From Bhargavaea beijingensis (GTDB taxonomy: Bacteria > Bacillota > Bacilli > Bacillales_A > Planococcaceae), in NCBI RefSeq assembly GCF_900101985.1, contig NZ_FNAR01000016.1, positions 1 to 57,783 on the forward strand: 57,783 nt of DNA. The letters run 5' to 3'. The position numbers were made by a program, and so were the translations under genes. Shown piece after piece: positions 375 to 35,765 of the stretch; positions within the stretch are counted from its first letter, which is position 1; each line of letters opens with the position of its first letter. A model generated the notes under the pieces. It did not search any database and had not been told where the DNA came from. It saw only the letters and a program-made list of their open reading frames with translations.

Positions 375-418
375 GAAGTTTTTTCGGCCGTTGGGCCCGC
401 CCCTTAAGGACAAGAACT

Positions 419-448
419 ACTATACATCATGGAGCCGGCGGAAATCAA
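419..448 (-). promoter_or_regulatory. rrn P1 promoter
   Basis: Minus strand: -35 TTGATT at 448-443, an 18-base spacer, then -10 TATAGT at 424-419, about 73 bases upstream of P2. The tandem arrangement is normal for Bacillales rrn operons. The -35 box overlaps the stop codon of the EamA transporter gene, so the rRNA promoter begins inside the preceding gene. Confidence 0.75.
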
Positions 449-4868: not shown

Positions 4869-6113
4869 TCACGCCCAGCCGCGGAAACGGGCAGCTTCAG
4901 CGGTTCTGCGGATGCCGACCATGTATGCAGCGAGACGCATATCAATGTTTCGGGATTTTGCAGTATTGTAGACATTTTCAAATGCCTCGGTCATCTTCTG
5001 ATAAAGCTTATCGTGGATTTCTTCCTCTGTCCAGTAGTAGCCTTGGTTGTTCTGCACCCACTCGAAGTAGGAGACTGTGACGCCGCCTGCGCTTGCAAGA
5101 ACGTCCGGTACGAGGAAGATGCCGCGTTCCGTCATGATTTTTGTAGCTTCGGAAGTGGAAGCCCCGTTGGCCGCTTCAACGACAATTTTAGCCTTGATGT
5201 CGTGAGCATTGCCCTCATGCAATTGATTTTCGAGTGCTGCAGGAACGAGGATATCGCAGTCGAGCTTGAACATTTCATCGTTTGTGATTGTGTCCTCAAA
5301 CAGAGTCGTCACCGTACCGAAGCTGTCGCGGCGGTCCAGAAGATAGTCGATATCCAGGCCATCCGGGTTGTGAAGTGCTCCGTACGCATCCGAAATCGCA
5401 ATGACTTTTGCGCCGGCGTCGTGGAGGAACTTGGACAGGTAGCTTCCGGCATTGCCGAAGCCCTGGATGATGACACGTGCGCCTTCGACTTCAATGCCGA
5501 TACGCTTCGCCGCTTCACGGATCGAGATGATGACGCCCTCTGCAGTTGCACGGTCACGGCCCTGCGAACCGCCGAGTACGATCGGCTTGCCCGTGATGAA
5601 CCCTGGGGAGTTGAACTCGTCAATGCGGCTGTACTCGTCCATCATCCATGCCATGATCTGTGCGTTGGTCATGACGTCGGGTGCAGGGATGTCCTTTGCA
5701 GGCCCCATGATCTGGCTGAGCGCGCGGACATATCCGCGGCTCAGGCGTTCGAGTTCGCCCATGGACATTTCGCGGGGATCGCAGATGATGCCGCCCTTGC
5801 CTCCGCCATATGGAAGGTCGACGATGCCGGCTTTCATTGTCATCCACATCGACAGCGCACGGACTTCATCCGCCGTCACGCCCGGGTGGAAACGCACGCC
5901 GCCTTTTGTCGGGCCGACTGCGTCGTTGTGCTGTGCACGGTAACCCGTAAAGACTTTGACTTTTCCATCATCCATTCGGATCGGAATCCGGACTTCGGTC
6001 ATGCGGATCGGCTCTTTCAGCAGCTCGTACATGCCCTCATCATAGCCCAATTTATCCAGCGCTTCATGAATTACTTTTTGTGTGGAGGTAACAAGATTTG
6101 TGTTCTCGCTCAT
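4869..6113 (-). CDS. rocG: NAD-dependent glutamate dehydrogenase (RocG/GudB type)
   Basis: A 414-residue enzyme for glutamate + NAD to 2-oxoglutarate + ammonia, the last step of arginine and proline breakdown. Visible are the substrate region GPTKGGVRFHP (about 67-77), the catalytic lysine in LPYGGGKGG (about 100-108), PAPDV near 145, and the dinucleotide site GFGNAGS (about 215-221). The reading frame is full length. Its place beside rocD and rocA favours the RocG role over GudB, although the sequence alone cannot separate them. A TACAAT -10-like box lies upstream near 6157-6162, but I see no convincing -35. Confidence 0.92.
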   Translation of the reverse strand: MSENTNLVTSTQKVIHEALDKLGYDEGMYELLKEPIRMTEVRIPIRMDDGKVKVFTGYRAQHNDAVGPTKGGVRFHPGVTADEVRALSMWMTMKAGIVDLPYGGGKGGIICDPREMSMGELERLSRGYVRALSQIMGPAKDIPAPDVMTNAQIMAWMMDEYSRIDEFNSPGFITGKPIVLGGSQGRDRATAEGVIISIREAAKRIGIEVEGARVIIQGFGNAGSYLSKFLHDAGAKVIAISDAYGALHNPDGLDIDYLLDRRDSFGTVTTLFEDTITNDEMFKLDCDILVPAALENQLHEGNAHDIKAKIVVEAANGASTSEATKIMTERGIFLVPDVLASAGGVTVSYFEWVQNNQGYYWTEEEIHDKLYQKMTEAFENVYNTAKSRNIDMRLAAYMVGIRRTAEAARFRGWA

Positions 6114-6215: not shown

Positions 6216-7409
6216 TCAAGCCGCAAATACTTCACGAATTTTGCCGAGTGCCCAGTCAAGCTCTTCTTTGGAAATGACGAGCGGTGGAGCAAAACGGATG
6301 ACCGTATCATGCGTTTCCTTGCAGAGAAGGCCGAGCTCTTTCAGTTTCTCGCAGTAAGGACGCGCTTCGGTATGCAGTTCGACACCGATGAAGAGCCCGC
6401 GTCCGCGCACTTCCTTGATGTCTGTGTTGTCGATTTTGCGCAGTTCGGCCATAAAGTATTCGCCGAGTTCGAGCGCCTTGTCCGCCAGGTTCTCTTCCTC
6501 AAGCACCTCGATGGATGCGATCGACACCGCGCAGGCCATCGGATTCCCGCCGAATGTGGAACCATGGGATCCCGGATTGAACACACCAAGGACCTCCTTG
6601 TCTGCAGCCACACAGGAAATCGGGAACACCCCGCCCCCGAGCGCTTTTCCGAGGATATACATATCCGGGTCTACATCTTCCCATTCACATGCGAACATTT
6701 TGCCTGTCCGTGCAAGACCGGCCTGGATTTCGTCCGCGATAAACAGAACATTGTTTTCCCGGCAGAATTCGCGTGCTTCTTTCAGGAACCCTTCCTTCGG
6801 AATGATGATGCCCGCTTCGCCCTGGATCGGCTCGAGGATGATGGCGGCAGTATTTTCATTGACAGCGTCTTTCAGGGCTTCAAGATCGCCATAATCGATA
6901 TGGACGATGCCCGGAAGCATTGGGCCGAAACCGCGCTGATATTCAGGATCGGATGACATCGATACAGCAGTCATCGTACGGCCGTGGAAGTTGCCGTTGC
7001 AGACGATGACTTCCGCCTTGCCTTCTTCGACACCCTTTACATCATAGGCCCAGCGGCGGGCCGCCTTGAAAGCAGTCTCGACCGCTTCCGCCCCCGTATT
7101 CATCGGCAGGACCATTCCTTTGCCGGTGAGGCTGCTGACTTTTTCATACCAAGGAGCCAGCTGGTCATTGTGGAAAGCACGTGACGTCAGCGTCACTTTG
7201 TCTGCCTGATCTTTCAGCGCCTGGATGATTTTCGGGTGGCGGTGACCCTGGTTTACTGCGGAATAGGCGGAAAGCATATCCATATACTCATTTCCTTCAG
7301 GATCCTTTACCCATACCCCTTTTGCTTCTGAAATGACGATCGGCAGCGGATTGTAGTTTTTCGCCCCATACTTGTCCGTCTGTTCAATGATCTGCTGTGT
7401 TTTTGTCAT
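6216..7409 (-). CDS. rocD: Ornithine--oxoacid aminotransferase
   Basis: A 397-residue class III PLP aminotransferase converting ornithine and 2-oxoglutarate to glutamate-5-semialdehyde and glutamate. The start of the fold ([19 protein letters not shown]), the cofactor region [19 protein letters not shown] and the PLP lysine in [10 protein letters not shown] are clear. I chose ATG 7409, nine bases after GGAGG at 7423-7419, over an ATG at 7418 that touches the ribosome site. It is the middle gene of rocA-rocD-rocG; the hairpin at 7433-7456 separates it from rocA. Confidence 0.94.
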
Positions 7410-7432
7410 CCTTCTCATCCTCCCTCATGTAA

Positions 7433-7489: not shown

Positions 7490-9034
7490 TCAGTGCATTT
7501 CCGAAACGGTCTTCGCCTGCATATGCAATGCCAGGTAGTCAGGTCCGCCTGCTTTGGAGTCGGTTCCGGACATGTTGAAACCTCCGAATGGCTGGTAGCC
7601 GACCACTGCAGCCGTGCAGCCACGGTTGAAGTAAAGGTTTCCGACATGGAAATCTTCACGCGCTTTTTCAAGGTGGAAACGGTTATTGGAGATGACCGCT
7701 CCCGTCAGACCGTAGTCAGTGTTGTTTGCGATGTCAATTGCTTCATCGAAGTCTTTCGCCTTTGCAAATGCAACAACAGGGCCGAAGATTTCTTCCTTCA
7801 TGATGCGCGCTTCCGAATCGACATCTGCAAAGATCGTCGGATTGACGAAGTACCCCTTGGAGTCGTCACCCGTGCCGCCGAGAACAAGACGACCTTCTTG
7901 CTTGCCGATCTCCACATATTCGAGAATCTTGTCATAGGAAGCTTTGTCGATGACCGGTCCCATGAAGTTGTTGTAGTCTTCCGGGTTGCCGACAGTAAGT
8001 TCTTTTGTCAGCTCTGTCACGCGGTCAAGCACTTGGTCATAGACGTCTTCCACGATGACTGCGCGCGAGCATGCCGAACACTTCTGTCCGCTGAAGCCGA
8101 ATGCGGATTTAACGATCGACTGTGCAGCCAATTCGAGGTCCGCATCATTGTCAACGACGATCGTGTCCTTGCCGCCCATCTCAGCAATGACGCGCTTGAG
8201 CCAGATCTGGCCTTCCTGGACTTTCGCCGCACGCTCGAAGATGCGCACACCAACATCACGGGAGCCTGTGAAGCTGATGAAGCGAGTTTTCGGATGATCA
8301 ACGAGGTAGTCACCGATATCACGGCTGGATCCCGGCACAAAGTTGATGACACCTGCAGGGAGGCCTGCCTGCTCCATAAGCTCAACAAACTTATAAGCGA
8401 TCACGGACGTATTGGATGCCGGCTTCAGGAGAACCGTGTTCCCAGTAACCGCAGCGGCAACCGCTGTGCCCGCCATGATGGCGAATGCAAAGTTCCAAGG
8501 CGAGATGACAACGCCGACTCCAAGCGGGATATAGCTGAAGCGGTTGTCTTCACCAGGACGCTGTGCGACGGGTACGCCGTCTTTCATCGCAATCATCTGT
8601 CGTCCGTAGTATTCGAGGAAGTCGATTCCTTCAGCCACGTCAGCATCCGCTTCCGGCCAAGGCTTGCCTGCTTCCTTGGAAAGAAGTGCCGAAAGTTCGA
8701 ATTTGCGGCGGCGTGCGATTGCTGCTGCACGGAAAAGGATGTCCGCACGGACTTCGGGCTTCACCTTGCGCCAAGTCTCAAAAGTCTCTTGTGCGACTTG
8801 CATGGCCTTTTCGGCGTGTTCTTGTGTTGCCTTAGATACATATCCGATGATTTCTTCCCGGTTGGAAGGGTTGAAGTTTTCCATTTTGTCTTCGGTGTAG
8901 ATGCGTTCTCCCCCGATGACAAGCGGAATTTCCTGACCCAGGTACTCCTTGACTATGCTGAACCCTTGCTCATATGCACGTCGGTTCTCCTCGTTCGAAA
9001 AATCCGTAAGTGGCTCGTGTTTGTAAGGAATCAA
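7490..9034 (-). CDS. rocA: 1-pyrroline-5-carboxylate (glutamate semialdehyde) dehydrogenase
   Basis: A 514-residue NAD-dependent aldehyde dehydrogenase that oxidises glutamate-gamma-semialdehyde to glutamate, the step after ornithine aminotransferase and proline dehydrogenase. The family features are present: PWNFAFAI near 169, the general-base glutamate in IAEMGGKD, and the catalytic cysteine in [12 protein letters not shown] near 320. The length equals RocA/YcgN enzymes. It is the first gene of the minus-strand roc group and is divergent from the RocR-like regulator, with 142 bases between. Confidence 0.95.
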
Positions 9035-9176
9035 TTGAACTCCTCCTCCATTTGATGTTCGAGATGCTAAAAAAATTTGCTCTCATTTCGTTTCACACTT
9101 ATAATAATGCAAAAGATCATTGCGAATTTCAAGTCTAAATCTCTGAAAAACGCAAAAAACTAATTTGAGGTGGACC
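9035..9176. promoter_or_regulatory. rocA / RocR-like divergent control region
   Basis: This 142-base region must hold promoters for both directions. For rocA I see TTCGCA, 17 bases, TATAAG (about 9121-9093 minus strand) as a possible vegetative promoter. I do not see a convincing -24/-12 sigma-54 element (GG and GC ten bases apart in the TGGCAC-N5-TTGCA context). A GAGGTGG ribosome site precedes the regulator at 9167-9173. Confidence 0.4.
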
Positions 9177-10490
9177 ATGGCTACCCAAAATGACGCGCTT
9201 TGGCCCTTCTACAAATTCGCCGTGGAGCATGCCGCACTGGGCATCCACGCCGTCGACATGAATGGAAGGACCGTCATCTACAATGAGAAAATGAAGCAAA
9301 TCGAAGGGCTCGATCTGGACGAACTGACAGATCGGAGCGTGCTGGATATGTTCCGGTTCGGCCAGGAAGAGAGCACGCTCATGAAAGTCATCCGGAGCGG
9401 GGATCCCGTCCGGAATGTCAAACAGACCTATTGGAATCGGAACGGGCAGGAAATCACCACCGTGAATGACACGTATCCGGTTTTCGGCCAGGAGGGAATG
9501 GTCGGCGCGGTTGAACTGGCACGGGACGTGACCGCGCTGGAGAAGTTCGTCCATCAGCCGCTCCGCACCTATGATGAGACCGTTACGTTTGCTTCCATCA
9601 CGGCGGAAAGCGATGCGATGAAATCGGTGATCGCAACAGCCAAAAAAGCGGCCGATGCTCAACTTCCGGTTTTATTGACAGGGGAAACAGGCACCGGGAA
9701 GGATCTTCTGGCAGGGGCGATGCACAATGGATCGTCACATGCGGGAAGCCCATACTATACCCTGTTCTGCCCGGGTCTCGACTCGGCCGATATTCACCGG
9801 ACGATGAAGGCAATCAGGAAGGAAGAGAACTGCACCGTGTTCTGTGACCGGCTCGACCTGATGCCGCTTAAGCTGCAGGAAGAACTGCTTAAGGAACTCG
9901 AAGCGCTTGGTGAGGATTCCAGACAGTACATTGCAAGCATCGGAGGAGACGCATTCGATCTGATTGCAAATGGGTCCCTATTGAAAGGCCTCTACTACTT
10001 TTTCTCGTCTATCACCATCTATATCCCACCGCTCAGAAAGCGGATGGATGACCTGTGGCCATTCATCGATGAATTTCTGGATCGCCACCGCCAGCGTTTC
10101 GGTTCCGCGGTTAAAGAGCTTTCTCCTGCAGTCCGGGAAACATTCGATTCTTATACATGGCCTGGCAACCTGAAGGAAGTCGAACTGCTTCTTGAAGAAA
10201 TCACTTCTCTCCTGACGACGGAAACCGAGATCACCCAAGATCTGCTGCCCCACCATTTCAAGCTGAAGGTGCAGGAGGAGTTCTCCCCTGCCAAGAGGCC
10301 CCAGGATTTTGTTCTGAGTGAAGGACAGGAGTTTCTTCCGTTGGATACTTATTTGCACGAAGCTGAAGAATATTATCTGTCGAAAGTGATGAATGTATTC
10401 GAAGGAAATGTCACAAAAGCAGCGCAGGCACTTGGCATGAGCCGCCAAAACCTCCAGTACCATCTGAAAAAAATCCGGAACGGCCAATGA
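9177..10490 (+). CDS. RocR-like PAS/AAA+/Fis regulator with degenerate AAA+ domain
   Basis: A 437-residue protein with the layout of sigma-54-dependent activators: an N-terminal PAS-like sensor (about 10-120), an AAA+ core (about 135-345) and a Fis-type helix-turn-helix (about 411-433, NVTKAAQALGMSRQNLQYHL). Walker A GETGTGKD (169-176) is intact. The GAFTGA loop and its ELFG lead-in are missing: only about 30 residues separate Walker A from Walker B. The Walker B glutamate is arginine (TVFCDRLDLMP), and the arginine finger of the usual LYYRL is phenylalanine (GLYYFFSS). ATG 9177 follows GAGGTGG. Its position next to rocA argues for a role in roc control. It probably does not drive sigma-54 polymerase and may act as a DNA-binding sensor. 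Confidence 0.85.
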   Translation: MATQNDALWPFYKFAVEHAALGIHAVDMNGRTVIYNEKMKQIEGLDLDELTDRSVLDMFRFGQEESTLMKVIRSGDPVRNVKQTYWNRNGQEITTVNDTYPVFGQEGMVGAVELARDVTALEKFVHQPLRTYDETVTFASITAESDAMKSVIATAKKAADAQLPVLLTGETGTGKDLLAGAMHNGSSHAGSPYYTLFCPGLDSADIHRTMKAIRKEENCTVFCDRLDLMPLKLQEELLKELEALGEDSRQYIASIGGDAFDLIANGSLLKGLYYFFSSITIYIPPLRKRMDDLWPFIDEFLDRHRQRFGSAVKELSPAVRETFDSYTWPGNLKEVELLLEEITSLLTTETEITQDLLPHHFKLKVQEEFSPAKRPQDFVLSEGQEFLPLDTYLHEAEEYYLSKVMNVFEGNVTKAAQALGMSRQNLQYHLKKIRNGQ

Positions 10491-34235: not shown

Positions 34236-35765
34236 TTATGATTGATCTCTGTCATATGGCTCAAGTGCATGTCTGTTCCATTTAATGAAGGTGAACAGGA
34301 TGCCCAAGACAAGTGCTGCGATGGCGACCGACCACCCCGCCCCCAGGATGAAAGCATCCGAATATCCTTCATAGTTGCCGGTTTCAAAGTCAAAACGTTT
34401 GCCGAGGTTCGTTCGGAACAGATCGAACATCATGTACCCAAGCACCAAAGGTGTAATGACCGTGAGGGAGAACTTCCACCATCCCCCGATCTGGATATCG
34501 GACATCGGATTGGCATGGTCCTTGAATACGTCAAGCTTGCGGAAGATCCACGCGACCGCGATGACCTCAATCAGTCCGATGAAGGCGACGCCGAATTGGT
34601 TGATGAAATAGTCGGCCACATCCAGGAAGTAAAGTCCTCCGCGTGTAGAAAACAGCAGCGAGATCAGCGAGGCAAGGCCGGCTCCAAAGAGGACCGCCTT
34701 ATTCCGCGAAATCCCCAGTTTCTCGGAAAGACCTGCGACATACGTCTCACAGATGGAGATGAGCGATGTGAGCCCGGCCAGTACGAGCGACAGGAAGAAC
34801 AGGACACCGAACAGGGCATTCATGCCCGGGAACTCGTTGATAATCTGCGGGAACACCGCAAAGGCGAGTCCGACTCCCGCCGTGGCGACTTCGTCGACGG
34901 GCACGTTGCTCTGGACAGCCATGAACCCGAGTGCGGCAAAGACGCCGATTCCGGCAAGCAGCTCAAAGCCGGAGTTTGCAAAGCCTGTAATGAAGGCGTT
35001 GTTCGTAATATCGGATTTCTTCGGCAGGTAGCTTGAATACGTGATCATGATCGCGAATGCGATGGATAAACTGAAGAAAATATGGCCGTAGGCCGCTACC
35101 CAGACAGTGCCATTCGCCAGCTGACTGAGGTCCGGCTTAAAGAATGCCTCGAGCCCGGTCAGGGCGCCCGGCAGCGTAACCGCCCGGATGACGATCAGCA
35201 GGAAGACGATGACGAGAGCCGGAATGAAGATCCGGTTTGCCATTTCAATCCCTTTTTTTACGCCTGCAAACAGGATGCCGAAGACGATGATCCAAACAAG
35301 AATGTGCGGGATCAGGACACCCGGCACAAACCCGCCGACTTGTCCCGGTGTATCCGCCAGGTTAAGCACCTCACCGAACAGGAAGCCGGTGGTATCGTCC
35401 CCCCACTGTAGGTTGAACGAATAAATCGTGTATTTCATTGCCCATGCGATGATGACCGAATAATAGGTGGAGATGACAAAAGCGACAAATACACCCCACC
35501 AGCCGAGCCATTCAGCCTTTTTCCCTTCCATGCGGAAGAAAGAAAGCGGGGCCGACCCGCGATACTTCTGCCCGATTGTAAATTCCATGATCAGAATCGG
35601 GATTCCGGCTGTTAGAAGCGCAAATAAGTAAGGAATGAAAAATGCCCCGCCGCCATTTTCATAGGCGACATAAGGAAAACGCCAGATATTCCCGAGGCCG
35701 ACCGCAGATCCGACCGCAGCCAGGATAAAGCCGGCCCTCGTCCCCCATTGTGAACGCTGTCCCAT
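34236..35765 (-). CDS. NSS family sodium-dependent transporter (MetP-like)
   Basis: A 509-residue, 12-span NSS transporter. Helix 1 carries GFILAAVGSAVGLGNIWRFP, followed by VAYENGGGAFFIPY. The adjacent MetS-type peptide points to methionine or alanine import. ATG 35765 follows AAGGGGGATCAAT; the frame is open upstream but lacks another good start. A strong promoter is at 35860-35888. It is more canonical (GN rather than GA after GLG) than the NSS gene at 13270. Confidence 0.9.
   Translation of the reverse strand: MGQRSQWGTRAGFILAAVGSAVGLGNIWRFPYVAYENGGGAFFIPYLFALLTAGIPILIMEFTIGQKYRGSAPLSFFRMEGKKAEWLGWWGVFVAFVISTYYSVIIAWAMKYTIYSFNLQWGDDTTGFLFGEVLNLADTPGQVGGFVPGVLIPHILVWIIVFGILFAGVKKGIEMANRIFIPALVIVFLLIVIRAVTLPGALTGLEAFFKPDLSQLANGTVWVAAYGHIFFSLSIAFAIMITYSSYLPKKSDITNNAFITGFANSGFELLAGIGVFAALGFMAVQSNVPVDEVATAGVGLAFAVFPQIINEFPGMNALFGVLFFLSLVLAGLTSLISICETYVAGLSEKLGISRNKAVLFGAGLASLISLLFSTRGGLYFLDVADYFINQFGVAFIGLIEVIAVAWIFRKLDVFKDHANPMSDIQIGGWWKFSLTVITPLVLGYMMFDLFRTNLGKRFDFETGNYEGYSDAFILGAGWSVAIAALVLGILFTFIKWNRHALEPYDRDQS

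Follow-up and report, generated by a model that had tools for sequence, protein, structure and literature searches.

RocR activates SigL-dependent roc operons in response to the effectors arginine, ornithine and citrulline and, in B. subtilis, point mutations can switch on a SigA-type promoter that lies ahead of rocDEF, as described in the accessible text of PMC9245794 (also PMC4348106). The GAFTGA motif is conserved in the eight enhancer-binding proteins (EBPs) that B. thuringiensis HD73 has, RocR among them, according to the available excerpt of PMC4428206. EBPs without an intact GAFTGA are a known kind, as cases have been published for TyrR, DhaR, HupR, VpsR, YplP and NtrC. Specifically, TyrR, DhaR and HupR are listed as EBP descendants with a defective GAFTGA that use sigma70, while VpsR and B. 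subtilis YplP are listed as proteins without the motif (excerpts of PMC3162934). The motif is likewise absent from the NtrC proteins of Caulobacter and Rhodobacter capsulatus, the latter of which needs ATP binding rather than hydrolysis (accessible part of PMC10274813).

The regulator analysed here is encoded in a 57,783-nt stretch of the Bhargavaea beijingensis genome (hereafter, the window). It resembles Bacillus RocR in its PAS, AAA+ and Fis-HTH layout, in the sequences of its PAS and HTH domains, in its divergent orientation relative to roc genes, and in the palindrome found at the locus. Unlike RocR, it lacks GAFTGA, the Walker B Glu, the sensor I Asn and the Arg finger, and its L2 segment is shortened; the roc promoter appears to be of the sigmaA instead of the -24/-12 type, with palindromes in the core promoter. 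As an EBP descendant that has lost GAFTGA and, apparently, its link to sigma54, it is comparable to TyrR, DhaR and HupR, from which it differs in lineage and presumably in ligand, the likeness being one of description rather than of compared residues. The NtrC proteins of R. capsulatus and Caulobacter, as well as Vibrio VpsR, share with it an L1 deletion including GAFTGA and the use of sigma70 promoters (accessible part of PMC10274813), but they are two-component-type or c-di-GMP-linked proteins of other genes, with activators among them. B. subtilis YplP is another Gram-positive EBP homolog without GAFTGA (excerpts of PMC3162934), again likened by description, but it is linked to cold shock and not to roc genes. 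Among the literature matches listed, within open-access scope, no paper dealt with a RocR that lacks GAFTGA, with the spread of such a form through a family, with any RocR of the Planococcaceae, or with a displaced palindrome pair.

The regulator and its missing residues

Table 1. Features of the regulator-roc locus in the window (strand as in the analysed sequence).
Feature	Position	Strand	Basis or remark
GAFTGA-less RocR-like regulator gene	9177..10490	+	ORF, ATG start, 437 aa
Regulator domains: PAS, residues ~1-125; degenerate AAA+, ~140-368; Fis-type HTH, 394-432			Pfam, alignment
Walker A codons, residues 169-176 (GETGTGKD), kept	9681..9704	+
Walker B pair D224-R225 (Glu to Arg)	9846..9851	+	alignment
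F275 at the Arg-finger position	9999..10001	+	alignment
Fis-type HTH, residues 394-432, recognition region LGMSRQNLQY	10356..10472	+	Pfam
rocA, P5C dehydrogenase-like, divergent from the regulator, presumed target	7490..9034	-	TTG start
rocD, ornithine aminotransferase-like	6216..7418	-
Glutamate dehydrogenase-like gene	4869..6113	-
rocA -35, TTGAAA	9127..9132	-	TTG in 142/142 scored loci
rocA -10, CATTAT, 17-bp spacer	9104..9109	-	pattern match
rocA ribosome-binding site, GGAGGAGG	9042..9049	-
Putative operator 1, GCAA-N7-TTGC, in the rocA -35/-10 spacer, over the predicted regulator transcript start	9109..9123	-
Putative operator 2, imperfect palindrome GAGAGCAAATTTTTTTAGCATCTC, core with one mismatch to GCAA-N7-TTGC	9061..9084	-
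Predicted regulator-gene -35, TTGCTC	9077..9082	+
Predicted regulator-gene -10, TATAAT, overlapping the rocA -10	9100..9105	+

The regulator matches the Pfam families PAS_4, Sigma54_activat, AAA_lid_14 and HTH_8, which together with the alignment bear out the PAS/AAA+/Fis layout and the intact Walker A motif described in the initial annotation of this DNA (Table 1). The Sigma54_activat match is partial and covers only profile positions 2-61 of 168, corresponding to regulator residues 142-201. A GAGGTGG stretch ahead of the ATG was seen by eye at 9167-9173.

The protein was compared with 15 GAFTGA-bearing RocR rows from other genomes, B. subtilis RocR itself not being among the aligned rows. 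The GAFTGA loop is absent from the regulator in this alignment. Counted from the Walker A Lys to T220, the regulator has 46 residues versus 61 in the reference rows, and counted from R225 to I252 it has 28 versus 38, so that the L1 (GAFTGA) and L2 segments are both shortened, by 15 and 10 residues, respectively. The Walker B pair is D-R where all 15 references have D-E, and F275 stands where all 15 have the Arg finger. The initial annotation had named the loss of the GAFTGA segment and these two substitutions, and the alignment agrees on each of them; the shortening of L2 and the loss of sensor I (G256 versus N in 15/15) go beyond the losses named there.

What had been seen as a peculiarity of one gene proved to be family-wide: a relative of the regulator at E ≤ 1e-90 is present in 243 of 261 Planococcaceae genomes searched. 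Named relatives come from Bhargavaea, Sporosarcina, Planococcus, Lysinibacillus, Kurthia, Viridibacillus, Ureibacillus and others, the closest being that of Bhargavaea massiliensis (97% identity). The residue census covered 130 distinct aligned relatives (58 named ones and 72 rows from family genomes) rather than all 243; L120, L127, L142-L147 and EBP_L004 were left out of the census and the tree, and one relative, L050, out of the alignment used for the structure. R225, G256 and F276 are invariant in all 130 relatives, and the Arg-finger position is occupied by F (96), L (18), Y (15) or H (1) but never by Arg. The Walker A Lys (K175) is kept in 122 of the 130, the others having Ile in six cases, Thr in one and a gap in one; ATP binding may therefore not matter in the seven relatives with a replaced Lys. 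In five pairs with Bhargavaea copies, dN/dS ranged from 0.027 to 0.052 for the whole gene and from 0.022 to 0.049 for the AAA+ domain, values that are rough due to the high dS (0.55-1.37). By these sequence measures, purifying selection acts on the GAFTGA-less form, which is spread across the family.

The Walker A Lys is also lost (GESGTGID, GESGAGTD) in the divergent regulator copies L121, L122 and L192-L197 and in L126 and L198, and several divergent copies without this Lys adjoin a rocA. A record titled Arthrobacter beigongshangensis (L077) carries the regulator and roc genes at 54-86% identity; its title may be a mislabel.

Promoters and palindromes of the roc locus

The gene divergent from the regulator, which we take to be rocA following the initial annotation, is followed on the minus strand by what are presumably rocD and a glutamate dehydrogenase gene (gdh), and the three genes would form an operon. 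Intergenic regions between the regulator and roc genes were collected from 173 loci and comprised 157 distinct sequences, 142 from GAFTGA-less and 15 from GAFTGA-bearing loci; the 16 uncounted loci are repeats of counted sequences or the window's own copy (L006). Also uncounted were 19 of the loci L010-L200 with no divergent roc gene in the stretch (L121, L125, L126, L128, L138, L142-L147, L166, L172, L174, L176, L193, L196, L198 and L199).

A sigmaA-type pattern, TTG-N20-CANNAT, which was drawn up after viewing the sequences and whose CA is also part of the palindrome, matches 142/142 GAFTGA-less loci versus 1/15 GAFTGA-bearing ones (1.6% of single-base shuffles); these loci represent few independent events, since 139 of the 142 belong to one clade. 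The distribution of the -24/-12 element (up to one mismatch) is the reverse, with 0/142 versus 14/15 (0.09% of single-base shuffles). The window itself has no such element in its rocA intergenic region, as the initial annotation had stated. Two -24/-12 strings with up to one mismatch occur elsewhere in the window, at 35280 and at 7533 on the minus strand; the latter lies inside the 3' end of rocA and was found in only one of 64 rocD upstream regions of relatives. Judged by sequence only, the rocA promoter is of the vegetative type, TTGAAA-N17-CATTAT. The predicted promoter of the regulator gene, TTGCTC-N17-TATAAT (9077-9105), has its TATAAT in place in 131 of the 142 GAFTGA-less loci.

The palindrome GCAA-N7-TTGC is exact in 137 and has one mismatch in five of the 142 GAFTGA-less loci. 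Among the GAFTGA-bearing loci it is exact in 6/15 and has one mismatch in 9/15, and the best match in each of these 15 loci was reached by at most one of 100 shuffles. A copy in the promoter spacer and a copy downstream, each with up to one mismatch, are present in 140/142 GAFTGA-less loci apiece. A palindrome scan, which in the window picked another stretch and missed the imperfect operator 2, placed the pair 43-44 bp apart in 121/142 loci. A template scan, by which operator 2 of the window lies at 59.5, located this site 59.5-60.5 bases from the first base of the -35 in 136 of the 138 scored loci (of 142). In the window, operator 2 covers approximately +13 to +36 relative to the inferred rocA start, and its core centre lies 43 bp from operator 1.

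Within the 14 loci with a -24/-12 element, the palindrome is found upstream, mostly with its centre between -72 and -127 relative to the inferred start. Two copies at a spacing of 43-44 bp occur in only four of them (L140 and L183, as well as L141 and L177 with a weak copy), and a 29-bp spacing in two. The HTH recognition region of the regulator (LGMSRQNLQY) is nearly the same as that of the GAFTGA-bearing RocR proteins (LGISRQSLQY). As the palindrome is present in both classes, the HTH is nearly unchanged and only the location differs, the palindrome looks ancestral and its position changed. Both putative operators can act on both promoters, because the regulator promoter overlaps the rocA -10.

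Proposed mechanism and its alternatives

TyrR needs ATP and acts through palindromes to repress sigma70 promoters. We propose, with a probability of roughly 0.6, that the regulator of the window is a RocR-lineage protein that has turned into a TyrR-like, ligand-controlled repressor of a sigmaA promoter and of its own gene. Such an enhancer-binding protein would no longer work with sigma54, while its little-changed Fis-type HTH would still recognise sites of the ancestral type, here two GCAA-N7-TTGC palindromes at a distance of 43-44 bp. This pair now straddles the sigmaA-type promoter of rocA, with operator 1 between the -35 and -10 elements, where it also covers the predicted start of the divergent regulator gene, and operator 2 over the presumed first transcribed part of rocA and over the predicted regulator -35. 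Most likely, an ATP-bound oligomer on both sites would repress rocA-rocD-gdh and its own gene. The conserved PAS domain would sense a metabolite of the arginine pathway, such as one of the RocR effectors ornithine, citrulline and arginine, and its binding would release the oligomer. The initial annotation had suggested either an ATP-binding repressor or a vegetative-promoter activator. The first option is favoured and the second less so, since one putative site is situated within the core promoter and the other beyond the inferred start; we infer repression rather than activation from this geometry.

An unlikely but serious alternative is a dual regulator that, as in TyrR, represses without ligand and with ligand aids the sigmaA polymerase at the same promoter. 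The rocA -10 CATTAT at the 17-bp spacing is weak (4 of 6), and GAFTGA-less EBPs at sigma70 promoters have precedents in the accessible part of PMC10274813. Loci that lost the regulator bear both on this possibility and on the repressor reading. Among the 18 family genomes without the regulator, ten keep rocA, and in nine of these ten the S1-domain gene that is normally found beyond the regulator adjoins rocA. Three of the ten loci (L216, L217 and L219, two of which look like one event) keep the -35/-10 elements at 17-bp spacing and have decayed palindromes, as if their promoter worked alone, which speaks for repression. Their -35 is nearer to the consensus, TTGACA once and TTGACT twice, which could be a compensation for a lost activator. 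The other seven loci have a different upstream region without the sigmaA element, one of them still with operator 2. However, operator 2 of the window lies downstream of the inferred start and operator 1 inside the core promoter, and no further conserved site was seen by eye upstream of the -35, which argues against ligand-dependent activation. The rocA of L222 (G245), which has no full regulator beside it, retains operator 2 together with 29 residues left over from the regulator.

It is improbable that the regulator acts as a MerR-like activator, with its operator in an over-long 20-bp spacer and a DNA distortion that lets a TATTAT or TATAAT hexamer serve. The better-scoring -10 is indeed found at the 20-bp spacing in 122/142 loci, with an average of 4.87 of 6 matches versus 4.02 at 17 bp. 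A 17-bp spacer fits 142/142 loci and a 20-bp one 90%. Against this reading, A2 and T6 are present in 142/142 loci only for the 17-bp hexamer, which is a condition of the pattern itself. Moreover, the hexamer at 20 bp is AATAGA, AATGTA or AATTCA in some divergent loci, the regulator-less loci L217 and L219 keep CATAAT at 17 bp, and the divergent TATAAT offers another explanation for the conserved A/T run.

Still less credible is a remaining service to sigma54, in which the regulator would join an intact EBP in mixed rings or act as a brake on it. The host genome does encode sigL (PF04552 match at C27:190326-190802, E 6.9e-60) and two EBPs with a GAFTGA-type motif (GSFTGA and GAFSGA), besides three EBPs without GAFTGA, and a GAFTGA-bearing RocR coexists with the GAFTGA-less form in genomes such as G017, G020, G058 and G149. 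Three perfect -24/-12 sites were identified near the two GAFTGA-type EBPs (stretches of 15.5 and 7 kb, 22.5 kb in all), and no perfect site near the three GAFTGA-less ones (stretches of 4.3, 7 and 8.8 kb, 20.1 kb in all). A sigma54 DNA-binding-domain match is present in 152 of the 261 family genomes, six of these matches being weak. The 243 regulator-bearing genomes include 133 with a strong match, six with a weak one and 104 with none found, among them the one-contig genomes G014 and G066. By these domain searches, the regulator persists in genomes without a sigL match, which argues against a sigma54 partner, as do the absence of a -24/-12 element at rocA and the loss of the Walker B Glu and Arg finger in all 130 aligned relatives. 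The initial annotation had proposed control of the roc genes without remodelling of sigma54 polymerase, which sigL together with a -24/-12 start at rocA would have contradicted; only sigL is present, and the sigmaA-type element in all GAFTGA-less loci and the 104 genomes without a sigma54 match are consistent with the proposal. The sigma54 independence of the regulator is thus well supported at the sequence level, and the label of a sigma54 activator would be wrong for most of the family (Lysinibacillus, Sporosarcina, Planococcus, Kurthia and others).

Several catalytic residues are gone, but a decaying pseudogene or a sequencing error, the latter also considered in the initial annotation, has a negligible chance given the dN/dS of ~0.05 or less in five pairs, the same losses in 130/130 relatives, the conserved operators and the same gene organisation in close relatives at 78-97% identity, which rules out the error.

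A possible route from activator to repressor

It is quite possible, though at somewhat less than even odds, that an enhancer module was moved at this locus. A RocR-type palindrome pair (43-44 bp) would have left its distant position ahead of a -24/-12 promoter and ended up within the core of a sigmaA promoter. What had been an ATPase activator would have turned into a repressor, gated by ATP, of two divergent promoters that overlap, with the loss of sigL possible afterwards. The stages of decay would be represented by L181, which combines GAFTGA with the sigmaA element, by L173 and L175, which lack GAFTGA but have the Walker B and Arg-finger residues, by the family form, and by the copies without the Walker A Lys. 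Outside the family, the sigmaA element was also found at L173 and L175, as well as at L178, where most of these residues are lost; these three make up the rest of the 142 GAFTGA-less loci. L181 (G589) encodes a GAFTGA-bearing RocR, yet its rocA is preceded by a sigmaA-type TTGATT-N17-CATCAT with a palindrome in the spacer; a second exact palindrome lies 45 bp upstream of the spacer copy, and no -24/-12 element is present between the genes. L181 may use sigma54 at another gene, since a -24/-12 element occurs elsewhere in its stretch (1755), and it is a possible intermediate. Such loci would offer a stepwise natural series in which an enhancer-dependent activator may become a regulator of the core promoter, all at a single locus and while keeping its DNA site, and the order in which promoter, loop, ATPase and sigma factor were lost becomes testable.

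Other EBPs without GAFTGA were observed in the B. beijingensis genome. One of them (L201:1597-2949, on G000:C41) has E-G for the Walker B D-E and no Arg finger, and adjoins an aminotransferase gene that we take to be GabT-like; no -24/-12 element with up to one mismatch was found in its 7-kb stretch. Another, presumably BkdR-like (L004, G000:C20:99134-99631; L214), keeps the Walker B DE and the Arg finger and has no -24/-12 element with up to one mismatch in 8.8 kb. Finally, GAFTGA-bearing RocR genes were found beside rocD or rocA at ~0.8-1.2 kb from the sigma54 domain of sigL in four loci, L184-L187 (G255, G237, G017 and G149).
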